Under the pieces are notes generated by a model. It saw only the letters and a program-made list of their open reading frames with translations, searched no databases and had not been told where the DNA came from. DNA of 31,974 nucleotides from a virus, in IMG/VR virus record IMGVR_UViG_3300028857_000250, positions 1-31,974 of that record. One strand, given 5' to 3'. This document shows positions 1 through 31,974 of the stretch, in pieces (within the stretch, counting starts at the first letter, position 1; each line of letters begins with the position of its first letter). The position numbers were made by a program, and so were the translations under genes.

Positions 1-2595
1 ATAAGTAGTCACACCATTGGTTCCGGCAGGGCCTTGTATACCTTGATTACCCGTAGCTCCCGTTGCACCATCGGCACCCTTGATTAGTGACCACGAGTAA
101 TCACCCGGGGTGGTTGATTCGGTGGCCGTGGACTTGTTATAGGCCAGTCCAATGTAGAGCTTGCCCGTTGGGTCATCAGACAGACCTGCACCGGCAACTG
201 TGTCAGCGTACTTTATCCAAGTATAGAGAGTTGCACCCGTTGCGCCCGCTATGCAAGTACCATTTTCTGATGGAGTATAACTGGTAGTTCCATCCGTGAG
301 GATTACCTTAGTTCGACTCCACATAAACTTTCCTTCACTCCAAACGGGGGCCAAGGTCGACCATTCTCCGCCTGAAAGTGCAGTTTTTGAAATTGACAGA
401 TAAAATTCAACATCAGCAGTTGCTACGGTTTTGTCAACGACCTCTTCAATGTTTTTTCCAGAAGATTGAAACTTAAAATTCCCTTGTATGACGCCATTAA
501 GAAGATCAATAAACGTATTCCCGTCCGCAGATATAAATTTGTTTGCTCTAACTCGTCCTGGTGTTATTTCGCTGTATCCGTAGAAAGGAACAAGGTCGCC
601 CCTGGTACCGTCTATCTCGCTGTTTAGAATGCCTACAAGCAAGTAGTAATACCCTGCAACTGATTCAATACCTTTTGCTGTTTCTGATAATTCATAGGTT
701 CCGGTACGCACCGTTTTTGAAACCTTTGCATAGAAATAATATTTCTTGCTACCATCATCCAAGACTGGCGAAACATAGGCCGACATGTCCCAAAACTTGT
801 ACTCAGATACCGAGTGAGTTGGGGATATCGTTGTAATGCCAAGCGTCATGTGTTGAATGATGCCGGCAGGGATACTGAGTTGCTTGGTTGACTCAGAGTA
901 AGCGATGAAGTCATCTACTTGTACCGGGTTGGTCTTGTTATTGACATAATAGAACTGCAACGACTCATCACCCAGGAGAATGGCCATTGTCTGAACGGCC
1001 ACCGGATTGATGGCGCTCCCAAAACCCGCAAAGGCTTCGGAGAGCATTTCTATTGTCTGTTGTGATGCCTTAAGTCCCCGTTTGGCATATTTAGCGACGG
1101 CCTTTGTCAGACGCTCAATTGTCTGTTCTTGCGTCGTGACCGAATTAATGACGGACGAAAACGATTTTGCCGAGACATTGTTGGCAATCTCAATAACCGG
1201 TGACTTAGGCTTGTTTACATAATCCTTGACGCTGATGATGCGTATGGCCACCGGCGTGGTCAGGAACTGATCATCATGAAACAGCACGAAGTACCCCACA
1301 TTCAAAAACCCACCAATGGCAAGCCAGTTGCGTTTGGCGTATAGCTCGTCGAGTGTCCACTTATAGGTGAACTGTGGGAGTAGGCGCGAGTCAAGGTACT
1401 CAACGGATTTATTCAGAGCTTTTGTTTCAGCCTGTGAGACGTAAGAAGTAGGCAAGGTGATATGAAACACCGCGTATTGATCACCCACGCCAGGTACCAA
1501 TGGCGCCTGTGGAAAATTGACTCCGTTATCCGTTGTTGGCACAATAGCAAAGCGACGCAGCGCGTGATCGTAGGCAACGTCAAACTCTTTTCCGGACAGA
1601 TCACCCGTCTGAAAGATGATGGTCATTGTCTCACCTGGCATCACAACTTGTGAAAAGTCGAGCCCAGACGGGATGGAACTATCAATGATGTCATATAGAC
1701 TTTTTGTGTCGTCAACTGCAACCACACCGCTTACGGTTCCTGTCCAGGAAGGCTTAATCTCGCTTACATCAAGAGAGTCATCAACCACATCACCCGTTCG
1801 GTCAAGACGCTCAACGTACGAGCCCGAAGCATCGGTGATGTAAGTTTTCCCATTGTAAGCAATCTCGGTTGAACGGGGTAATAGTAGTGTTGTATTGCCA
1901 TATACACCGGCATTTATATTTTCGGATCCACCCTGAATGTAAACCCTATTGATGACCTTTGAATCATCATACTGTGTGCGCTGAAGACCTGACAAGATAC
2001 CGTTATCGTAACCGTACGAAAGGTCGATAGGTGATTCTTTTAGTTTTTCGATCGGTCCAATAGATAGGGTCTTGTTCTCAAAATCGTACTCAGTCTTGAA
2101 GGCATCAATGATCTTTGTGAGTGCTGCGTCACAATACTCGTGGTTAAAGTCAAGGGTAACGGGTTCGGCCGTGATGCATTCGCCCAATGTCCACCCTTTA
2201 TCCGCATCATTGAGGTTGAGATTATTTACAATCAACCGGCCAAACTCCTCGGGTGTGGCTGTCAGGGAAAACTTCAACCGATACGGTCCCTCTGGAGTTG
2301 TACCGTTCATGGTAAAGAACTTGAACTTAACCGTTGATGCCTTTCGATAGGCACCATACATAACGAGGGTATAGTCGTATGACCTCGAGTGTATCTTGGT
2401 GAAGTTTTCCGGATTAAAAAGGTAGTATTTCTCAGCACGAAACTCGCACCAACTTCCAAGTGGCAGCTCTACGAACTCGGATGAAGAGAAATACAAAGTC
2501 AAAACATTTTCCCCCATGATCTCTTTAAGCCTGTAACTCTTGTCGTCTACAGGGATATCAAGGAGTAGTGCGTTATTCTTGTTGTAGAGCTGCAT
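1..2595 (-). CDS. Tail tip / tail-associated protein with collagen-like repeats (3' end outside window)
   Basis: The frame is open from the ATG at 2595 to the left edge (865 codons, no stop; I checked every codon), so the C-terminus is missing. The N-terminus (MQLYNKNNALLLDIPVDD) and the first ~500 residues look like the phage tail endopeptidase/Tal-type proteins that follow the distal tail protein in siphoviruses. Around residues 480-520 is a helical stretch, and at the edge a run of Gly-X-Y triplets (GADGATGATG, then GIQGPAGTNG) that resembles collagen-like fibre segments of receptor-binding proteins. It starts 20 bp downstream of the distal tail gene and is the last visible gene of the tail operon. 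Inferred role: baseplate hub and start of the fibre. No DGR variable repeat is visible in this part. Confidence 0.82.
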   Translation of the reverse strand, partial: MQLYNKNNALLLDIPVDDKSYRLKEIMGENVLTLYFSSSEFVELPLGSWCEFRAEKYYLFNPENFTKIHSRSYDYTLVMYGAYRKASTVKFKFFTMNGTTPEGPYRLKFSLTATPEEFGRLIVNNLNLNDADKGWTLGECITAEPVTLDFNHEYCDAALTKIIDAFKTEYDFENKTLSIGPIEKLKESPIDLSYGYDNGILSGLQRTQYDDSKVINRVYIQGGSENINAGVYGNTTLLLPRSTEIAYNGKTYITDASGSYVERLDRTGDVVDDSLDVSEIKPSWTGTVSGVVAVDDTKSLYDIIDSSIPSGLDFSQVVMPGETMTIIFQTGDLSGKEFDVAYDHALRRFAIVPTTDNGVNFPQAPLVPGVGDQYAVFHITLPTSYVSQAETKALNKSVEYLDSRLLPQFTYKWTLDELYAKRNWLAIGGFLNVGYFVLFHDDQFLTTPVAIRIISVKDYVNKPKSPVIEIANNVSAKSFSSVINSVTTQEQTIERLTKAVAKYAKRGLKASQQTIEMLSEAFAGFGSAINPVAVQTMAILLGDESLQFYYVNNKTNPVQVDDFIAYSESTKQLSIPAGIIQHMTLGITTISPTHSVSEYKFWDMSAYVSPVLDDGSKKYYFYAKVSKTVRTGTYELSETAKGIESVAGYYYLLVGILNSEIDGTRGDLVPFYGYSEITPGRVRANKFISADGNTFIDLLNGVIQGNFKFQSSGKNIEEVVDKTVATADVEFYLSISKTALSGGEWSTLAPVWSEGKFMWSRTKVILTDGTTSYTPSENGTCIAGATGATLYTWIKYADTVAGAGLSDDPTGKLYIGLAYNKSTATESTTPGDYSWSLIKGADGATGATGNQGIQGPAGTNGVTTY

Positions 2596-8790: not shown

Positions 8791-9351
8791 TTATTGGGGT
8801 TTAAATAGTGTTATAATGCGTTTTAAATAGGTAATAAATGGTGTACGATAAAGAATCAACAGGCCAACTAAAACAAGAATGATCAAAATGATAAGCGTGG
8901 GACCAGCCGAAGGTGGCTTTTTTACAATCTTGCTCTTTGTGGTCTCTTTTCTTGTCACCTGTAAAGCTGAGGAGCTGGATGCGGATTTACTTATGGTCTG
9001 TTTTAGATCATCAACTCTTAAGGATACGGCTCCCACATTGATTGCCTTTACTTTTATCTTTTCGGTTTGTAAGATCCTTACCGGGTACTGACGACCAGTC
9101 GAGTCGGGAACAGATAGGGTGACATCAAGCGATTGAATAATTTCAGCCTCGTTAGATGTCGAGTCACGCACGGTGGTCATCTCTTTGTGCTGTGTGCTGA
9201 CGTCTTTAGAGATGGAATCGGTGTTGGTTACAAGAGCAGCTTGTACATCTGTGTGAGTCTTGATGTTTTGCTTTGTAGTTCCACATGAGAACAGCAAGAT
9301 GCTAAGCGTCAGAATGAAGATCAGCCTTAATCTGAGCAACGATTTTTTCAT
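8791..9351 (-). CDS. Unimolecular spanin-like lipoprotein
   Basis: A 186-residue protein starting at MKKSLLRLRLIFIL. It has a type II (lipoprotein) signal with the lipobox-like LLFSC followed by GTT, a long Ser/Thr/Lys-rich periplasmic stretch, and a C-terminal transmembrane segment (TLIILIILVLVGLLILYR, about residues 150-170) with a short basic tail. A lipid anchor at one end and a membrane helix at the other is the layout of u-spanins such as T1 gp11, which bridge and fuse inner and outer membranes in the last step of lysis. It follows the holin-like gene and amidase gene, completing a lysis cassette. The first 50 bp overlap the end of the holin-like frame. Start chosen over the upstream MQII start because a Lys-Lys signal peptide begins here. 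Confidence 0.7.
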   Translation of the reverse strand: MKKSLLRLRLIFILTLSILLFSCGTTKQNIKTHTDVQAALVTNTDSISKDVSTQHKEMTTVRDSTSNEAEIIQSLDVTLSVPDSTGRQYPVRILQTEKIKVKAINVGAVSLRVDDLKQTISKSASSSSALQVTRKETTKSKIVKKPPSAGPTLIILIILVLVGLLILYRTPFITYLKRIITLFKPQ

Positions 9352-9739
9352 AATTATCTGCATTGATTTTATCGAGTGATTTGACCATTTTAGTATTTAT
9401 CGTTACCAGGCGTTTTACTTCACCTCTAAGCTCCTCAGTGATTTGCGTGAGTTGTGAGAACTGCTCATCCGTTTTTTTCCATTTGAGTTCATAGGCTTCT
9501 GCCTGCTCGCGCCACATGCGTGCGATCTTCTCCACGTTGTCAATCTCCGAGCTCTCGGCTTGCTTCTCGACGACATCGGCCTGCGCCGTAGCCTGTAAGG
9601 CTTCACCCCGGCTCTTGAGCTTGTATGATCGAAGGGTCATGAACGTGAGGATCAGGCCACCACCAAAGAGCAGGTTAAGAATTAGGCTAAGCATCTGAAA
9701 CCACAGAGGAACAGCCTGGGATAAGTATTCGCCTTCCAT
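9302..9739 (-). CDS. Holin-like membrane protein with coiled coil
   Basis: 145 residues from the ATG at 9739, two bases after the amidase stop; the longer frame would need a TTG start inside the amidase gene. One strong hydrophobic segment lies at about residues 10-33 (FQMLSLILNLLFGGGLILTF), followed by a charged helical domain likely to form a coiled coil (EKQAESSEIDNVEKIARMW and on). The position between an amidase and a spanin-like gene suggests a holin or holin accessory that lets the amidase reach the cell wall, but a single-helix protein with a long cytoplasmic or periplasmic tail could equally be a structural membrane protein. Confidence 0.55.
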   Translation of the reverse strand: MEGEYLSQAVPLWFQMLSLILNLLFGGGLILTFMTLRSYKLKSRGEALQATAQADVVEKQAESSEIDNVEKIARMWREQAEAYELKWKKTDEQFSQLTQITEELRGEVKRLVTINTKMVKSLDKINADNYEKIVAQIKADLHSDA

Positions 9740-20052: not shown

Positions 20053-20364
20053 TTACGTGAATTCAAAAGATTTTTTTCCTCCTCCATATCTTCTGGCCAC
20101 AATTATGGTCTGGAAAGGAAAATCTGTTTTATCAACTTGATCCAATGCTTTTTTTATTGGTTCAGCATTAGTAAAAAACTTACATTCATGATCATCGGTG
20201 AGTATTTTCAAAACATATCTTCCATCACCGTGTCTCGTTGTTATATTTCCCTGAAAATCAAGAACCTCAATTTCTTTATTAATAATATCTTCAATTGATA
20301 TCTGAGGAACATCAAAAATGTTCTTACTCTCGATTTTTACATTCAGATCAGAAAACTTTTTCAT
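20053..20364 (-). CDS. Small DGR-associated protein downstream of the reverse transcriptase (possible OB-fold)
   Basis: 103 residues: MKKFSDLNVKIESKNIFDVP, then IINKEIEVLDFQGNITTRHG, GDGRYVLKILTDDHECKFFT and a C-terminal TDFPFQTIIVARRYGG. The alternating strand pattern with a Gly-rich loop suggests a small beta-barrel such as a single-strand DNA-binding protein. Its ATG overlaps the end of the reverse transcriptase gene by 17 bases, so the two are almost certainly cotranscribed. I recall similar small genes next to DGR reverse transcriptases in Bacteroidetes phages, but I cannot name a family. It does not look like the four-helix Avd accessory protein. Confidence 0.6.
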   Translation of the reverse strand: MKKFSDLNVKIESKNIFDVPQISIEDIINKEIEVLDFQGNITTRHGDGRYVLKILTDDHECKFFTNAEPIKKALDQVDKTDFPFQTIIVARRYGGGKKSFEFT

Positions 20365-21334
20365 ACTTGAGTACCTTTTTCATTAAATGTCTTCCATTGC
20401 TCCCTTTTAGCCATCCATTCCATGGACTAAGTTGTTGCTTGTATTTTTTTGGATCAAGGTCAAGCTTATTGAGAGCCGCCGCTTTACGGCAGAAGTTCTT
20501 TTTAATCGATTTGCGCAGCAAGACATGAGTATGGAAGAAAACATATCCAACAACATCTATGCCCCTTGCATCGACGGGAAAAACCTGATAATTGCCCTTT
20601 ATTTGTAGTTTAAGATTGTCTCGCATGTATTGCTCCATCCTATAGCGGTAATAATGCGCCTGTGGCTTGTTCTTAGCCAATATCACAATGTCATCGCAGT
20701 AACGGTAGTAGTGTTTGACTTTCATCACATCTTTCATCCAGTGGTCAAAATATGCGAAATACAGAGTGGCCATATATTGAGACAGGTAGTTGCCTATTGG
20801 CATTCCCGGGGCAGACTCAATATACATATCCAAAAAGGCCAAGACACGTGCATCCTTTATCTTTTTACGCACAATTGCTTTCATGATATCATGGTCTATT
20901 GTCGGATAAAACTTGCGCGTGTCGATTTTAAGACAATACTGTGTGTTTCTATCCCTTTTAAGACCATGCTTCAGGTCAACGGATAATCCCTTAATACCTC
21001 TTCCCTTAATGCCTGAGTATGTAAACTTGATGAACACCTTGTCCCATATTGGCTTTAGCACATTCATCACAGCATGTTGGGCAACACGATCACGAAAAGG
21101 CAAGCAATAGACCAGTCGCTCTTTTGGCTCATATACTGTTGTTAGACGGTATTCGGAAATCTTATAGGTCTGATTCATTAGGTCTTGGTAAACACATTCC
21201 AAATTGTTGTCCAAATCCTTTTCAAATTCCAAGACTCCCCAAGACTTTGACTTCTTTTTTTTGGCGTTCAGATATGCCAGGAACACATTGTCCCTGGTAC
21301 ACACCTGATCGTATAGATTATTGTAACGTATCAT
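20348..21334 (-). CDS. Reverse transcriptase of a diversity-generating retroelement
   Basis: 328 residues from MIRYNNLYDQVCTRDNVFLA. The palm-domain motifs are in order: LKIDTRKFYPTI (first catalytic Asp, ~137), GMPIGNYLSQYMA (~173-185), and the catalytic YRYCDDIVIL (YxDD, ~207-216). The [I/V/L]GxxxSQ form of the fourth motif, here IGNYLSQ, is characteristic of DGR reverse transcriptases. The enzyme copies the TR RNA with errors at adenines and the cDNA replaces a VR in a target gene (mutagenic retrohoming). Template repeat at 21449-21521 is just upstream on the same strand, three VRs are further upstream. The ATG at 21334 is preferred over one 48 bp upstream that would begin before the conserved domain. 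Confidence 0.96.
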   Translation of the reverse strand: MIRYNNLYDQVCTRDNVFLAYLNAKKKKSKSWGVLEFEKDLDNNLECVYQDLMNQTYKISEYRLTTVYEPKERLVYCLPFRDRVAQHAVMNVLKPIWDKVFIKFTYSGIKGRGIKGLSVDLKHGLKRDRNTQYCLKIDTRKFYPTIDHDIMKAIVRKKIKDARVLAFLDMYIESAPGMPIGNYLSQYMATLYFAYFDHWMKDVMKVKHYYRYCDDIVILAKNKPQAHYYRYRMEQYMRDNLKLQIKGNYQVFPVDARGIDVVGYVFFHTHVLLRKSIKKNFCRKAAALNKLDLDPKKYKQQLSPWNGWLKGSNGRHLMKKVLKYEKVF

Positions 21335-21448
21335 TTTTAGCCTTGCTTCTATTTGGAGCCTTCGCCGTAAGGCTACCAGCACCGTTTGAAAGTGAGTTGT
21401 TTTTTGCCATGTGGGCAGGGCCTTTGCCTATCATTTTTTGAGCATTGT

Positions 21449-21521
21449 GGGAGGCGTCACCCGCGTTCGCGTTCGAGCAGTTGTAGTTCGTGTCGTAGAA
21501 ATCGACCGAGCCGGACGACAG
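21449..21521 (-). repeat. DGR template repeat (TR)
   Basis: 73 bp, between the first target gene and the reverse transcriptase. In the coding sense it would read SSGSVDF, then Y D T N Y N C S N A N, then AGDAS, with four AAC and two TAC codons in the core, the composition expected for a template whose adenines are mutagenised. The 14 adenines of the coding strand include 12 in the core (plus-strand T at 21466, 21467, 21472, 21473, 21481, 21482, 21484, 21487, 21488, 21491, 21493, 21496), all changed in at least one VR. The coding-sense 3' end (CGCGGGTGACGCCTCCC) is GC-rich and identical in all copies, as an initiation-of-mutagenic-homing sequence should be. Confidence 0.95.
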
Positions 21522-21548
21522 CCAAGAGGCAAACAGCCTGTTTTGATT

Positions 21549-21929
21549 TTATTTTCTCAAAGCCGTATTGAATTCTTCAGGCCACGTGGTGGCCGCGTGT
21601 CGCGTGTCGCTCTCATCGAGGAAGGCGCGGCGGGAGGCGTCACCCGCGTACGCGAGCGAGCAGCGGCAGTGCGTGTCGCAGAAATCGACCGAGCCGGACG
21701 ACAGCATCTCAAAAACTGGAAAGTGCTTTCTTTGATCATAATTGGACCAGTCAATAGGCACACCTGGCATGCTTAGTGAGTTGGCACATTTTGCCATAAC
21801 CTTTGTTCGGTAATCGGCCAGCATTTCTTCATGAAATTCTTCCGGGATTTCAGTAATAGTCTTCGCATCCGGAAGACCTGTGATTTCAAAACATTCTTTG
21901 AGATCCGTGATTTCAGCAAATTTTTTCAT
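21549..21929 (-). CDS. DGR target protein 1
   Basis: 126 residues, starting MKKFAEITDLKECFEITGLP. The first ~70 residues are helical; the VR encodes residues 76-100 (SSGSVDFCDTHCRCSLAYAG), followed by a 28-residue tail. It is a paralogue of target 2 (shared KECFE/NECFE, WSNYDQRK/WRNPNQKK, SSGSVDF, FLDESD and C-terminal Phe/Leu-Lys). The variable core differs from the TR-encoded one at six of eight diversifiable residues. It resembles a common family of Bacteroidetes phage proteins whose C-terminus has a W..P..W..F..SSG pattern; I recall no function for it. No signal peptide or membrane segment. Lies immediately upstream of the TR. Confidence 0.88.
   Translation of the reverse strand: MKKFAEITDLKECFEITGLPDAKTITEIPEEFHEEMLADYRTKVMAKCANSLSMPGVPIDWSNYDQRKHFPVFEMLSSGSVDFCDTHCRCSLAYAGDASRRAFLDESDTRHAATTWPEEFNTALRK
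21632..21704 (-). repeat. DGR variable repeat VR1
   Basis: 73 bp in target 1, aligned without gaps to the TR. Eight substitutions, all at TR adenines: core residues Y D T N Y N C S N A N become C D T H C R C S L A Y. A hairpin GGCCAC-GTG-GTGGCC (21580-21594) lies 38 bp downstream in the coding sense. Confidence 0.95.
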
Positions 21930-21938
21930 GTTAGATAT

Positions 21939-22325
21939 TTATTTGGTTAGAAAATCTTCAAATACGTCAGGTGCGATATTAAAGGCATGGCGTACATCGC
22001 TCTCATCGAGAAAAGCGAGGCGGGAGGCGTCACCCGCGACCGCGAACGAGCAGTCGTAGCGCGAGACGTAGAAATCGACCGAGCCGGACGACAGAAACCT
22101 AAGCCATCCAAACCATTTTTTTTGATTTGGATTTCTCCAGTCAGGCTTTTGATCAGATCCTTTTAATTTATTAGCCGATTCGGCTATGACCATTTCCTTA
22201 TAAAAGGCCATAATCACGGGATGCAAATCACTTGGTATTTGATCTACTGATTCAACAACTGGCCTTTCGGCTACTTCAAAACACTCGTTGACATCTTTAA
22301 TGTCAGTAAACTTTTTCTTTTTCAT
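21939..22325 (-). CDS. DGR target protein 2
   Basis: 128 residues, starting MKKKKFTDIKDVNECFEVAE. Helical N-terminal region (VIMAFYKEMVIAESANKL), then DWRNPNQKKWFGWLRFL leading into the VR at residues 78-102 (VDFYVSRYDCSFAVAGDASR), and the tail LAFLDESDVRHAFNIAPDVF. Paralogue of target 1, from which it is separated by 9 bp, so they probably share one transcript. The Trp residues before the VR look like the start of a ligand-binding fold in which the variable residues are displayed. Function unknown. Confidence 0.88.
   Translation of the reverse strand: MKKKKFTDIKDVNECFEVAERPVVESVDQIPSDLHPVIMAFYKEMVIAESANKLKGSDQKPDWRNPNQKKWFGWLRFLSSGSVDFYVSRYDCSFAVAGDASRLAFLDESDVRHAFNIAPDVFEDFLTK
22022..22094 (-). 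repeat. DGR variable repeat VR2
   Basis: 73 bp in target 2, gap-free against the TR. Nine substitutions, all at TR adenines: core becomes Y V S R Y D C S F A V. The Asp-to-Val and Thr-to-Ser changes come from the single adenines of GAC and ACG. Confidence 0.95.
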
Positions 22326-22355
22326 GTTTGGTTTGATTTTTCGGCTTTTGACCGG

Positions 22356-23108
22356 TTATTTATTCATGATGTTTTGGAAGACATTTTGACAGGCAGGGTT
22401 TTTGCCGAGTGTCTCGGCCGCTTTGGCGCTCACAGCGCTCAGGCGGGAGGCGTCACCCGCGTGCGCGAGCGAGCAGTGGCAGAGCGAGACGTAGAAATCG
22501 ACCGAGCCGGACGACAGCAAATTGAACCATGCCTGGTATTTACGGGTAGTGGTATCAAGGTAGGACAAACGCTGTCCTTGGTTGACAGCCTCGTACATGA
22601 CAATGCCGTCATACACTGACAGGATGTACTCGTGCAGGTCTTCAGGGAGTTCGCTGACGCTTGTTATGCGTGGGCGGCCTGCCTCTTGGTAGAATTCTTC
22701 GATCGATGCATCCTTGAGACGTTCAAGTACATCGGTGATGAGCGCTTTCTTACCGAAAGCGGCATCAAGTTTTGACTTGAGCGCTTCAGATGCGCTCGGG
22801 TACATTGCGATAGCTTCCTGGAGCGTGAAGTCCAGGGATTGGGATTGTGTTTCAGGTTCAGTCTTTTTCATTTTAAAAGTCATTAAATTAAAATCCTTCA
22901 ATAGTTTATAATCTTTATCAATTTGCTTATACAGTTGCTTTATTTCTTTCTCAATATTCGCTTTTCTATCTGCCTCAATACGAGAAATGGTCTTGTTTAC
23001 TTTTTCAAGAATGCTATTTGATACAACCAAGTTTGTTATTTTTTGAATTACGCCATCCATTTGAATGGATACTTCAATAGTCGACAATTCATTATTATCT
23101 TTTCCCAT
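22356..23108 (-). CDS. DGR target protein 3, with N-terminal coiled-coil extension
   Basis: 250 residues, twice the size of the other targets. Residues 1-~130 are extra: MGKDNNELSTIEVSIQMDGV, then a Lys/Glu/Ile-rich coiled coil (KVNKTISRIEADRKANIEKE, then LYKQIDKDYKLLKDFN) and an Ala-rich helical part. The rest matches targets 1 and 2 (SIEEFYQEAGRPRITSVSEL; LPEDLHEYILSVYDG; KYQAWFNLLSSGSVDF), with the VR at residues 198-222 and a different tail (LSAVSAKAAETLGKNPACQN). The coiled coil suggests self-association or a partner. First gene of the target cluster, just below the small HTH-like gene. Confidence 0.88.
   Translation of the reverse strand: MGKDNNELSTIEVSIQMDGVIQKITNLVVSNSILEKVNKTISRIEADRKANIEKEIKQLYKQIDKDYKLLKDFNLMTFKMKKTEPETQSQSLDFTLQEAIAMYPSASEALKSKLDAAFGKKALITDVLERLKDASIEEFYQEAGRPRITSVSELPEDLHEYILSVYDGIVMYEAVNQGQRLSYLDTTTRKYQAWFNLLSSGSVDFYVSLCHCSLAHAGDASRLSAVSAKAAETLGKNPACQNVFQNIMNK
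22445..22517 (-). repeat. DGR variable repeat VR3
   Basis: 73 bp in target 3, gap-free against the TR. Nine substitutions, all at TR adenines: core becomes Y V S L C H C S L A H. It shares five of its substituted plus-strand bases with VR2 or VR1 but has its own combination. Short hairpins GCGCT-CAC-AGCGC (22426-22438) and GCCGAG-TGT-CTCGGC (22404-22418) lie just downstream in the coding sense. Confidence 0.95.
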
Positions 23109-27290: not shown

Positions 27291-28175
27291 TCAACGAAGT
27301 GTCAGCTCGTTGTAAATACGACGCAGGGATGGAAATTTGTCCTCACCCATGCATCCGCGCAGCACCTTGCCCGTGTTAACGCCTGCCTCGGCGTTGGCCT
27401 TAATGATCATCGTTGCGGTAATGATGAGCATCTCGCTTCTTTCAACAGGCTTATCCTCGGCCACGATGCATTGGTAGCGCTTGCCAAAACGGCTAAAGAG
27501 CTCCGTAAAACCAATGATCTTATTGTCTATCGAGCGCTGCATGCGCTGTTTGAGTCCATCCGCTCCGACCATATACCAGGCACAGCAACCCCTTGTAGCG
27601 TTCCACAGCGACTTGATCTCCAAGAAAGTCTCGTGGCGTACATCACCTACCTCATCAAGGATGATAAGGGGCCGAGTGAGTGTCTTGAGGTAAAAAACCA
27701 ATTCCGAGTACACGTCGTTATAACGACCCGAGTAGGTCAGGCCGAACTCACGGGCAATGGCGCGAATGAGCAGCTGCTTTGTCTTAGCCTGTGAGCAATC
27801 AATATATACAGCGTTGCGGTGTGTGCGTACGTAGCACTCGCAGGCGTACGTCTTTCCAATATCCGACAGATCACAAAACAGGGAGCTGATTCCTTGCTCC
27901 TGGCAGTCCTCCAACTGAGCATTGATAAACTGAAAGACCGGCGTTTCGGCTGTCTTCCATACAGGAGCGTTGTCGATACTGATGGCCATGCGTCTAGCTA
28001 AGCCTATCCACTTCTGATCACTTAGGATCTTGTCCAGCTCACCGTTCTTGATGCGATTGTACTGAGCAGCGTTGATGTCAAGGCTGATGGCAAAACGTGC
28101 ATCGCTGCCGTCGAAATTCCTTCGAGCGTCCGCTAGTGCTGTTACAATACGCTGTTTAATGTCCGTTGAAATCAT
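27291..28175 (-). CDS. Mu B-like transposition ATPase
   Basis: 294 residues. An N-terminal HTH-like part (SLDINAAQYNRIKNGELDKI) is followed by an AAA+ domain: FCDLSDIGKTYACECYVRT is a degenerate Walker A (the GKT is kept, the first Gly is Ser/Asp context), RPLIILDEVGDVRHETFLEI the Walker B with DE, and GCCAWYMVGADGLKQRM the sensor region. Mu B binds target DNA and activates the Mu A transposase. It sits directly after the transposase gene, as in Mu. Confidence 0.88.
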   Translation of the reverse strand: MISTDIKQRIVTALADARRNFDGSDARFAISLDINAAQYNRIKNGELDKILSDQKWIGLARRMAISIDNAPVWKTAETPVFQFINAQLEDCQEQGISSLFCDLSDIGKTYACECYVRTHRNAVYIDCSQAKTKQLLIRAIAREFGLTYSGRYNDVYSELVFYLKTLTRPLIILDEVGDVRHETFLEIKSLWNATRGCCAWYMVGADGLKQRMQRSIDNKIIGFTELFSRFGKRYQCIVAEDKPVERSEMLIITATMIIKANAEAGVNTGKVLRGCMGEDKFPSLRRIYNELTLR

Positions 28176-28196: not shown

Positions 28197-30191
28197 TTAC
28201 AATCCGGCTCTACCTGCAGAGCGCCAGTCACGAGAATTAACTATTTCTTCCTCTTCCAACACCTCGACAAGTTCCTTTGTCTGCCTGTCATCACTGGGGG
28301 CATCAAGCACGCGCTGCATGATCTGTGAGGTGGATGCCTCCATGATGCCGATGCGCGGTATGTCAACCCTTTGTTCCTTCATAAAGGCATCGAACTTTGA
28401 AAGGCGCTTGTTTTGGTGAAGCATATTCAGGTCATCAATATCCGTACGCTCGATCGCACACTCGTTATAGGCGTACTGTGCCTTATTGACGGCCTCACCA
28501 ATGTAGGTGTCGCCTTGGTATAGATAGACGTTGCTGATGGTGCCGTCTTCATCGGGTAGCCAGTATGCTGTCACGTCCCAATTGTTTGGCTTGAGCCTTT
28601 TAAGGTTTCCGAAATGCTGCAGCTCGAACTTATCGCCCTGAACGGGACAATAGTCGTTGTTGTAGATCATTGTCTTGGTCTTGTTACCGATCCATCGGTA
28701 TAGCCTCCATTTTTCGATCGGTGACAGAGTTGGGTTGACCTGTGATAGCAGCACCTGGCGGCGCGTCATACCCGGGTACCTCTTCTGTAGCGGGTGCAGG
28801 CTGTTATTGTGTGTGTCAATATCCGAAAGGTCATCTCCGATGATGGCCTGTGGTTGGTATGTCGGCTCAATGAAGTCTCCGGACTCTTTGTTACGAACGG
28901 CCCTGTAGGCTTCGTGACGAGCATACCAACGACCGCGTGTGTGACCGGCATCTTTAGCCGCACCATACTTGAGCGACCTAATAGCGTGCTCGGCGCGTTT
29001 CTCTGTTGGTGACTCGCAAAAACGTACAAAAGGGAAAGCATCACCAAGCCATTTGATGTCTTTCATGAGGTGGTGCTCAACCTCGAGTTCACCAGGCATT
29101 GGAAGATCTAACAGGGATAGTTCACAGAACATGTTCTGGAAGGACTCCATGACTGTATCAAGGGTGGGCTTGCCAACGATGTACGCCGGGCGGAACCAGT
29201 AACCGGATACAACATCCACGGCCATGTACTTAAAGACCCACCCACGGACGCTCTGACGGCTCATAGCCACGTCATCCATGGATATCTTGGAAAGTGAATA
29301 CATACCCACCTTGCGATCGTGCTTGGGACGCAGGCGGTTGACATAGTCAAAGTTGCCATTCCTGTCCGAGAATGTGGCTGTCTGATTGACAACGCTCTTT
29401 AAGTAACTCCATACGGTTGCCTGTGATACCTCTAAGGCGCGACCCTTATAACGGAAATCATCGGGACGGAAGACCTCACCCGTGCTCTTGTCAAACATCT
29501 CTTTGTCGCCGGCAACAAACTCAAGGTAGAGTTCATGCACGCGGGTACCGAAAGGCTTATCGTTTTGGCGCCACAAAGCCAGGAAGAGTTTTTCCATATC
29601 GCTAGACACTTTGCGTGCCCTGTCATTGCCGCGGCCTTTGTGCATCACCGAGGCATTTCCATCCTTGAGATATAGGTCATAGGCGCGCTTGAACGATCGG
29701 TCATTAGCAAAAGGTTTGAAGTTCATCTTTTCGGATTTTTCTAGCTGCCACTCGGTGGCCAGCTTCCAGAAATCGCCCATATTAATGCGTTGGTTGTTAC
29801 AGGAGCGAGCCTGACGTTGACTGGATAACCCGCGACGGATGGCCTCAAAGACACGTACACGGTTAGTGTACTCCTCTACCTTCTCGAAAGTCTGAGTGTC
29901 ACCCTCCGGCATGTGGGATAGGAACCAGGCGCGAGCCTTCTCGTCTTCCTCAATAGAAAAAATGGATTTAGGGCCTTCCTTGCTGATGGATCCAAAGGCA
30001 TCCTCGATGACGCGCAGCCTATCCGGGCGCTTGACGCTGTCAAGATAGATGGTCGTTCCTCCGTTGATGCTGCGAAGAGCAATCTGGAGAAGACCACCCT
30101 TGGAATCTTTTTTAAATTGGTCCATCGACAGGCCGGCAGTGAGCCAGTCATTGACGGTGAGAACCAACCTATTTCCAATCATCTTGTACAT
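28197..30191 (-). CDS. Mu A-like DDE transposase
   Basis: 664 residues from MYKMIGNRLVLTVNDWLTAG. N-terminal DNA-binding region with HTH-like parts, then the RNase H-like catalytic domain: AVDVVSGYWFRPAYIVGKP (first Asp, about residue 322), GELEVEHHLMKDIKW (second acidic position, near 369) and SPTEKRAEHAIRSLKYG (Glu near 395-398). The last ~150 residues have the Mu transposase C-terminal pattern (RPxYGMTRRQVLL-like GMTRRQVLLSQVNPTLSPIE). It catalyses phage integration and replicative transposition together with the Mu B-like ATPase. Start chosen at 30191; ATG 30182 and the upstream ATG 30215 are also possible. Confidence 0.92.
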   Translation of the reverse strand: MYKMIGNRLVLTVNDWLTAGLSMDQFKKDSKGGLLQIALRSINGGTTIYLDSVKRPDRLRVIEDAFGSISKEGPKSIFSIEEDEKARAWFLSHMPEGDTQTFEKVEEYTNRVRVFEAIRRGLSSQRQARSCNNQRINMGDFWKLATEWQLEKSEKMNFKPFANDRSFKRAYDLYLKDGNASVMHKGRGNDRARKVSSDMEKLFLALWRQNDKPFGTRVHELYLEFVAGDKEMFDKSTGEVFRPDDFRYKGRALEVSQATVWSYLKSVVNQTATFSDRNGNFDYVNRLRPKHDRKVGMYSLSKISMDDVAMSRQSVRGWVFKYMAVDVVSGYWFRPAYIVGKPTLDTVMESFQNMFCELSLLDLPMPGELEVEHHLMKDIKWLGDAFPFVRFCESPTEKRAEHAIRSLKYGAAKDAGHTRGRWYARHEAYRAVRNKESGDFIEPTYQPQAIIGDDLSDIDTHNNSLHPLQKRYPGMTRRQVLLSQVNPTLSPIEKWRLYRWIGNKTKTMIYNNDYCPVQGDKFELQHFGNLKRLKPNNWDVTAYWLPDEDGTISNVYLYQGDTYIGEAVNKAQYAYNECAIERTDIDDLNMLHQNKRLSKFDAFMKEQRVDIPRIGIMEASTSQIMQRVLDAPSDDRQTKELVEVLEEEEIVNSRDWRSAGRAGL

Positions 30192-30212
30192 ATCGTAAAC
30201 TTTATATCTTTG
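30184..30212 (+). promoter_or_regulatory. Bacteroidetes-type promoter for the membrane-protein moron
   Basis: On the + strand CTTG (TTG at 30184-30186), 18 bases, then TATCTTTG (30205-30212), which fits TAnnTTTG exactly. It lies 24 bp before the ATG of the + strand membrane protein and overlaps the beginning of the divergent transposase gene. Confidence 0.55.
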
Positions 30213-30236
30213 CAAAAACCTTAAATACTTATTACG

Positions 30237-31041: not shown

Positions 31042-31226
31042 AAAATTTTTTGTTTTGGTTTTACATCAACTTCGGAGCCTCCGCGTTCGATGGCCGCCTT
31101 GCGTATACGCTTGGCCAAATCGGAGTTTGAGTCAAATTTTAATGCGTTGCTCACACAGCGTGGTGTAACTACGAACAAAACAGACAACTCTTTCCGTTCA
31201 CCATGCCTAACAAGTACTTCGCTCAT
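31038..31226 (-). CDS. Ner/Cro-like DNA-binding regulator
   Basis: 62 residues from MSEVLVRHGERKELSVLFVV. The VRHGERKELSVLFVVTPRCV segment with the following SNALKF and SDLAKRIRKAAIERGG is the pattern of small HTH proteins that Bacteroidetes phages carry opposite their repressor. It would repress or switch the early promoter like Ner in Mu or Cro in lambda. I place the start at ATG 31226, not at the GTG at 31325 that would run through the operator and overlap the repressor start. The residual N-terminal hydrophobic stretch of the longer frame is simply the operator repeat translated. Promoter-like site and operator O1 are at 31269-31300. Confidence 0.75.
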   Translation of the reverse strand: MSEVLVRHGERKELSVLFVVTPRCVSNALKFDSNSDLAKRIRKAAIERGGSEVDVKPKQKIL

Positions 31227-31268
31227 ATTTTCGTATATTTGGAGCCGTTCCGATATTGGAACATGCTG

Positions 31269-31300
31269 CAAAAGTGCGATTATAATCGCACCAAAACAAA
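31269..31300 (-). promoter_or_regulatory. Promoter-like site of the early (Ner-like) operon, holding operator O1
   Basis: On the - strand TTTG (31300-31297), 20 bases, then CACTTTTG (31276-31269), seven of eight fixed positions of the Bacteroides consensus if the first T of the second box is allowed to vary. The palindrome O1 (31275-31290) lies between the boxes, so repressor binding there would shut off early transcription. The Ner-like ATG is 43 bp further on. Confidence 0.45.
31275..31290. promoter_or_regulatory. Repressor operator O1 (perfect 16-bp palindrome)
   Basis: TGCGATTATAATCGCA is its own reverse complement. It lies between the divergent repressor and Ner-like genes. Two related sites follow at 31305-31320 and 31455-31470. 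Confidence 0.7.
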
Positions 31301-31304
31301 TAAT

Positions 31305-31320
31305 TACGATGATAATCGCA
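31305..31320. promoter_or_regulatory. Operator-like site O2 over the repressor start codon
   Basis: TACGATGATAATCGCA shares 14 of 16 bases with O1 and keeps the half-site TAATCGCA intact. The repressor ATG (31309-31311) lies inside it, so binding would compete with repressor translation start or its own promoter. Confidence 0.55.
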
Positions 31321-31974
31321 ACCACAAAGAAAAGAATTTTGCAATTTGTTGAATATAAGCAAATTACAAAGCAAGAATTTTTTAGAATAACGGGGTTGAG
31401 TAGGGGTCTTTTGGACGCTGATAAGCTAAATCAGTCCATAGAAGATGGAAAAGTGGCGACTATAATCGCATCTTTCCCTGAATTATCGCTGGAGTGGCTT
31501 ATAACCGGTAAGGGTGAGATGATTCGTGACGTTGATTCTGGTCAACGAATAAAAGAACCGCCTCCACCATTGATACAAAAACAAAAGGGTATACCACTTA
31601 TTCCAACAAAAGCAGAATCCGGTGTCTTTAATTGCGATATTCAAATAAATGAATACGAGTGCGAGTTTTTTGATGTGCCGACATTTAAGGGCGCCGACTT
31701 CTTAATAACGGTAAGGGGTGATTCAATGGTGCCAAATTACAAACCGGGTGATATCGTTGCATGTAAGAAGATAGAAATTGGTACATACATACAGTGGAAT
31801 CGCGTGTATGTAATAGACACAGATCAAGGACCAATCATTAAAAGGATTAAACCGGCACAATCCAAGGACATTCTCCTTATAATATCGGACAATGTGGACT
31901 TTTCACCTTTTGATCTACCAGTCGATAAAATTCGCCATCTGGCGCTCGTTTTGGGTTCAATAAGGCCTGAATAA
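31309..31974 (+). CDS. CI/LexA-type prophage repressor with S24 autopeptidase domain
   Basis: 221 residues from MIIATTKKRILQFVEYKQIT. N-terminal HTH (KQEFFRITGLSRGLLDADKL, then PELSLEWLITGKGEMIRD), a Pro-rich hinge and a C-terminal S24 domain: Ser139 in VRGDSMVPNYKPGDIVACKK and Lys178 in GPIIKRIKP are the expected catalytic pair, 39 residues apart. The hinge has Ser104-Gly105 (KAESGVFN) where an Ala-Gly cleavage site is usual. It would keep the phage dormant and be inactivated by self-cleavage after DNA damage. The frame extends upstream to 31090 but those residues lie opposite the Ner-like gene and over the operator, so I start at 31309. The stop codon is the last base of the window. Confidence 0.88.
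   Translation: MIIATTKKRILQFVEYKQITKQEFFRITGLSRGLLDADKLNQSIEDGKVATIIASFPELSLEWLITGKGEMIRDVDSGQRIKEPPPPLIQKQKGIPLIPTKAESGVFNCDIQINEYECEFFDVPTFKGADFLITVRGDSMVPNYKPGDIVACKKIEIGTYIQWNRVYVIDTDQGPIIKRIKPAQSKDILLIISDNVDFSPFDLPVDKIRHLALVLGSIRPE
31455..31470. promoter_or_regulatory. Operator-like site O3 inside the repressor gene
   Basis: GGCGACTATAATCGCA matches O1 at 14 of 16 positions with the half-site TAATCGCA intact. It lies about 150 bp into the repressor coding sequence, a place where bound repressor could roadblock its own transcription. Confidence 0.45.

Follow-up and report, generated by a model that had tools for sequence, protein, structure and literature searches.

The diversity-generating retroelement (DGR) of phage BPP-1 cannot work without the protein Avd, which is a usual component of DGRs but does not define all of them. 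Strains of the hankyphage (Bacteroides phage p00) carry a DGR cassette that is active in culture (PMC12135933), and an Avd has been reported for the hankyphage (PMC12135933; also PMC6199706, as a small open reading frame (ORF) near the reverse transcriptase (RT)). Of 948 DGRs, 28.6% have more than one variable repeat (VR; PMC6642488), and about 13% of cassettes have two target genes (PMC10743442). We analyzed the virus record IMGVR_UViG_3300028857_000250, a stretch of 31,974 bases referred to here as the window, and conclude with a probability of roughly 93% that it comes from a Mu-like Bacteroidales phage whose early region harbors a complete DGR, with one template repeat (TR) serving three tandem targets. 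The identification as a DGR, made in a preliminary description of the sequence, is supported by the clade and motifs of the RT, the pairing of TR and VRs, the adenine-only variation, and a structured RNA between the TR and the RT (Table 1).

Table 1. Features of the DGR cassette and early genes in the window.
Feature	Coordinates	Strand	Description	Basis
103-aa gene	20053..20364	-	Overlaps the RT stop; phrog_19665; candidate accessory protein	
DGR reverse transcriptase	20348..21334	-	328 aa if ATG 21334 is the start; ORF reaches GTG 21382	
Structured RNA	21334..21422	-	Between TR and RT; Rfam RT-17 (RF03020)	36.4 bits, threshold 40.4, E 1.5e-4
IMH*-like segment (candidate)	21442..21448	-	ACAATGC directly 3′ of TR; GCC[TG].GC after all three VRs	
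Template repeat (TR)	21449..21521	-	73 bp, 12 mutable core adenines	Repeat alignment and degenerate pattern search
Target 1	21549..21929	-	126 aa, holds VR1	Target family upstream of RT in relatives
Variable repeat 1 (VR1)	21632..21704	-	8 A substitutions	TR alignment
Target 2	21939..22325	-	128 aa, holds VR2; 46% identity to target 1	
Variable repeat 2 (VR2)	22022..22094	-	9 A substitutions	TR alignment
Target 3	22356..23108	-	250 aa, holds VR3; predicted N-terminal helix (residues 5-83), then family domain	
Variable repeat 3 (VR3)	22445..22517	-	9 A substitutions	TR alignment
MuB-like gene	27291-28175			
Transposase	28197-30215			
Repressor	31090-31974			

The coordinates first assigned to the TR and the VRs are exact on the minus (coding) strand, and the substitution counts (8, 9, and 9, for a total of 26) were reproduced. 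As had been claimed, all of the substitutions (26/26) are located at TR adenines, a placement with a chance probability of about 9.5e-23. The count of 12 varying adenines is likewise correct: 12 of the 14 TR adenines differ in at least one VR and the 59 non-adenine positions are constant, with the adenines at core positions 20 and 65 being the same in all three VRs. When the window was searched with a degenerate TR/VR pattern, allowing 3 mismatches, exactly four matches were returned, compared to none in shuffled sequences. Each VR is in frame within its minus-strand ORF and does not extend to the end of the gene, as about 25 coding codons are located downstream. The mutated codons are AAC, TAC, GAC, and ACG, in which adenine changes never give stops, and the 12 adenines allow about 1.3e7 protein variants per target. 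Three different VRs, one template, and three intact ORFs fit repeated retrohoming events.

The RT possesses both of the motifs that were attributed to it, IGNYLSQ and YCDD, which correspond to the DGR-clade patterns [LIV]GxxxSQ and YxDD. Its best PHROG match is PHROG 1423, phage reverse transcriptases (1.4e-108), and among solved structures the BPP-1 DGR RT ranks first (8ub7, 7e-51), with group II intron RTs scoring far behind. A small phylogenetic tree contains a 100/100 branch that has all DGR-type RTs, including that of the window, on one side; on the other side are two RTs of group II introns and one further phage RT. Relatives of the RT with 44 to 60% identity are the DGR RTs of crAss-like and other Bacteroidota phages, the closest at 59 to 60%. 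The probable start codon of the RT is ATG 21334 and not GTG 21382, since position 21334 is where a crAss relative begins and also where the match to the RT-17 RNA stops.

The RT-17 match in the window is 4 bits below the Rfam curated threshold; at the same place, RT-17 reaches the threshold in 11 of the 16 relatives searched and in 2 of 7 further loci. Among 31 aligned relatives, 98.7% of the cells in the predicted helices are paired, and 54 cells are two-sided compensatory changes, compared to 12.8 in shuffles. The pairing of the helices drops by half when the partner is shifted by one column. The equivalent site is occupied by the Rfam Phage_DGR RNA in BPP-1 and by RT-3 in the hankyphage. 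Because the same place holds Phage_DGR in BPP-1, both RT-17 and RT-3 look like DGR RNAs, and the conserved position and pairing of RT-17 would most simply make it the DGR RNA of the window's lineage.

Directly past the repeat, the bases G-C-C are common to all three VRs, in contrast to A-C-A at the TR, and relatives have an equivalent fixed difference in the 3′ flank (cAcctAtgct at the TR versus cGcctTtgct at the VR). This is the kind of difference known from IMH and IMH* in BPP-1, and by analogy the flank at 21442-21448 is a candidate signal for distinguishing the TR from the VRs. A hairpin 3′ of the VR was also considered and was dropped: no conserved one was found, and the best stems behind 93 VRs average 3.7 bp, versus 3.8 bp behind 48 TRs. 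If the steps of retrohoming are as in BPP-1 and other DGRs, the TR and the RT-17 spacer RNA would be transcribed together, and the RT would copy the TR RNA and place random bases opposite its adenines. The mutated cDNA would then enter a VR at its 3′ flank, replacing the VR in any of the three tandem targets, with the different 3′ flank (IMH versus IMH*) marking the VRs as recipients. The same analogy suggests that the cassette is currently active.

Judged by its Mu-type portal, Mu F, Gp36, and transposase pair, and by a shared gene order, the window is a Mu-like Bacteroidales phage related to the hankyphage. The terminase is 55 to 57% identical to the terminases of the hankyphage and of Porphyromonas gingivalis Mu-like phages, and the gene order runs in reverse relative to these phages. 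The early genes continue to position 20053 and are followed by the head operon on the plus strand (Mu-type portal, Mu F, and Gp36) and then by capsid and tail genes on the minus strand. The DGR cassette is flanked by early genes (the transposase pair and the DUF3164 and GemA-like genes) and by the opposite-strand head operon. A tail gene with a collagen-like stretch (1-2595, minus strand) is interrupted by the contig end, and tail-fiber genes are absent from the record because its left end cuts inside this tail gene. Adjoining the amidase gene, the protein encoded at 8791-9363 (minus strand) carries a lipobox-like sequence at its N-terminus and a membrane segment at its C-terminus and is a candidate unimolecular spanin.

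Relatives of the cassette were found by an RT alignment search of viral contigs. Searches of the viral contigs with single-protein and three-protein target patterns, or with the RT alone, gave no matches, as the patterns were too specific, and an exact-match search for the same phage population also gave none. By profile, the target family is present upstream of the RT in 65 of the 80 viral relatives, of which 49 have two copies, 12 have one, and 4 have three. A separate genome scan also recovered this arrangement from Paludibacter, Dysgonomonas, Tannerella, and other Bacteroidales. The order and spacing of the cassette are kept in tens of relatives, where the RT match is preceded by the TR at about 180 bases and by the VRs at about 360 and 780 bases. 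The adenine bias extends to these relatives: 2182/2432 TR-VR mismatches are at TR adenines in a scan that allowed any mismatch, since a scan for adenine changes only would be circular. In the 77 loci for which 1.5 kb or more of upstream sequence is available, some of which are near-duplicates, the number of VRs per locus was none in 3, one in 13, two in 53, three in 6, and four in 2. Three or four VRs are thus present in 8/77 loci, and the earlier statement that three targets are less common agrees with this count. One TR with three targets is uncommon yet recurrent, and multitarget DGRs are already published. The window has the common target pair and, in addition, a second copy of the short gene. 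Among the related loci, a Dysgonomonas locus (L101:6706-8144) is a DGR remnant that retains DGR targets and half of the 103-aa gene and has lost the RT. Three other loci (L037, L038, and L039) have a target-family gene and an RT, and no TR was detected upstream of the RT.

The Pfam bAvd model (PF22296) found no Avd in the window, in 11 relatives, or in the hankyphage; in the positive controls, the same model found Avd in BPP-1 (2.2e-37) and in Magia. A search with PF05635 was uninformative because it gave no match anywhere, BPP-1 included. The small hankyphage ORF directly after the RT (L005:40371-40853), which matches DUF4376 and not the bAvd model, is apparently the ORF described as the hankyphage Avd. 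The 103-aa family is located at the RT stop or close by in 72 of the 80 relatives, the gene overlaps the RT stop in most relatives, and the homolog and the RT form one ORF in the hankyphage and in four other loci (L072, L092, L094, and L096). When genomes were scanned with the 103-aa protein alone, 17/19 matches were beside a DGR-type RT; the two remaining matches are at a contig edge (L098) and in the locus that lacks an RT (L101). The family was not found beside the RT in the BPP-1, Magia, VHML, Epona, Perkons, and crAss loci. Pfam and PDB searches gave nothing credible for it, and an OB fold is a guess from the strand order read by eye. Because Avd is undetected and the gene overlaps the RT stop or is fused to the RT, the 103-aa protein is a candidate substitute for Avd, that is, an accessory factor whose role is suggested by its linkage to the RT. 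The protein may already be named in Wu et al. 2018 (PMC5758913), where another DGR-linked protein that lacks a Pfam family is reportedly given a name (PMC10053308).

Targets 1, 2, and 3 belong to one family of small proteins. The predicted extra N-terminal helix of target 3, approximately 80 residues long, is absent from the aligned targets of relatives. An AlphaFold2 model of target 2, built from 62 sequences, has a mean pLDDT of 81 and is mainly helical: two N-terminal and two C-terminal helices hold the VR, for which the pLDDT is about 50 or lower. No solved structure in the PDB matched the targets, and the only matches were uncharacterized phage proteins. The VR segment can be aligned to the VR end of lectin-type targets from related DGRs (hhalign probability 92, P 7e-7, 32 columns), and the ending GSRL[CA]F is common to this segment and to the lectin-type targets, including that of the hankyphage. 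The targets could possibly represent a reduced or rebuilt lectin fold, and most likely they present a variable binding surface.

As in BPP-1 and the hankyphage, the targets could be tail-associated receptor-binding proteins that switch host range, a reading that we consider quite possible, if short of even odds. The hhalign match of the VR segment to the VR end of tail-type lectin targets argues for this function, whereas the proteins are small, as a rule 120 to 160 aa, with no recognizable tail-attachment domain, and the cassette is located in the early region. Among relatives with small targets, early genes are near the cassette in 37/60 and tail genes in 1/60, compared to 0/7 and 5/7, respectively, in the same RT group with other targets; these counts are lower bounds, as similarity to the window's proteins was required. 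The position of the cassette speaks weakly against tail adhesins: it is an early-region site away from the tail genes, and therefore the targets may not be tail-tip adhesins.

Slightly less probable is an intracellular function, in which the targets may, for instance, serve as variable binding proteins against host defense proteins or proteins of competing phages. The early-region position, the lack of a signal peptide or membrane segment by hydrophobicity (the highest 19-residue mean is 1.09), and the diversification of several paralogs at once are consistent with an intracellular role. However, an early position is no proof of early-only use, and variable adhesins can reach export or virions without a classical signal. 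It appears unlikely that both of these departures from BPP-1 hold together, such that the window represents an Avd-free lineage in which the RT-linked 103-aa protein replaces Avd and early-region, non-tail mini-targets serve an intracellular arms race.

Two results count against reading the locus as a complete DGR, namely, that Avd was not found, though it is essential in BPP-1, and that no hairpin is conserved 3′ of the VR. We consider it improbable that the DGR is no longer active, with the VR differences being old and the cassette a relic in the phage. The missing Avd (by the bAvd model) and the broken state of some relatives (L101 without an RT, and L037 to L039 without a detected TR) would fit such a relic, but the RT, the targets, and the TR of the window are all intact and the RNA helix is conserved. 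Moreover, there are 0 non-adenine TR-VR differences in 3 × 59 positions, which argues for recent copying and against inactivity. Finally, the adenine-only pattern of the four repeats excludes their origin by ordinary gene duplication or by gene conversion, with differences due to chance: targets 1 and 2 are clear duplicates, but every difference among the repeats is at a template adenine (P about 1e-22), the identical core is bordered by strongly different flanks, and the repeats are next to a DGR RT.

Taken as a complete DGR with three targets, the locus resembles the BPP-1 DGR (mtd, avd, and brt) in the RT family, the TR upstream of the RT, the structured RNA between the TR and the RT, and the adenine-only variation. 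The two differ in their targets, which are a single 381-aa tail-tip protein, Mtd, in BPP-1 (PMC10743442) and three small proteins in the window, and in the length of the TR (134 bp in BPP-1 versus 73 bp). BPP-1 also has an Avd gene, whereas none was found in the window by the same search, and a GC-rich hairpin 3′ of the VR that is needed there (PMC3240598), whereas none is conserved in the window. The hankyphage, also a Mu-like phage of Bacteroidales, has related structural genes (55% identity for the terminase) and a DGR, and its RT ORF ends in a homolog of the window's 103-aa protein. Unlike that of the window, its DGR lies at the genome's tail end and diversifies one large protein with a 117-bp repeat (PMC6199706); the hankyphage RT is 33% identical to the window RT, and its RNA is RT-3 instead of RT-17. 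The two-target phage DGRs with tentaclins (nd4 and nd12) also use one TR for more than one target gene (PMC10743442). Their targets are lectin-Ig proteins of 569 to 579 aa and lectin proteins of 234 to 294 aa in myovirus-type phages, and their RTs are about 28% identical to the window RT.

The DGRs in Bacteroidota IMG/VR contigs and in Paludibacter, Dysgonomonas, and Tannerella prophages share the RT lineage, RT-17, the 103-aa gene, the small-target family, and the order of these parts with the window. Most of them have two targets; in the window, the short target is duplicated and the third target, of 250 aa, has an added N-terminal helix. This type of DGR is already known, and the window adds a clean three-target case in a lineage that is well populated in metagenomes. 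The lineage makes it testable what does the job of Avd in DGRs without Avd and whether targeted hypermutation in phages extends beyond tail-tip receptor binding. The linkage of the 103-aa gene, together with its RT-fused homolog in the hankyphage, makes the Avd question directly testable in a commensal laboratory system (PMC12135933).
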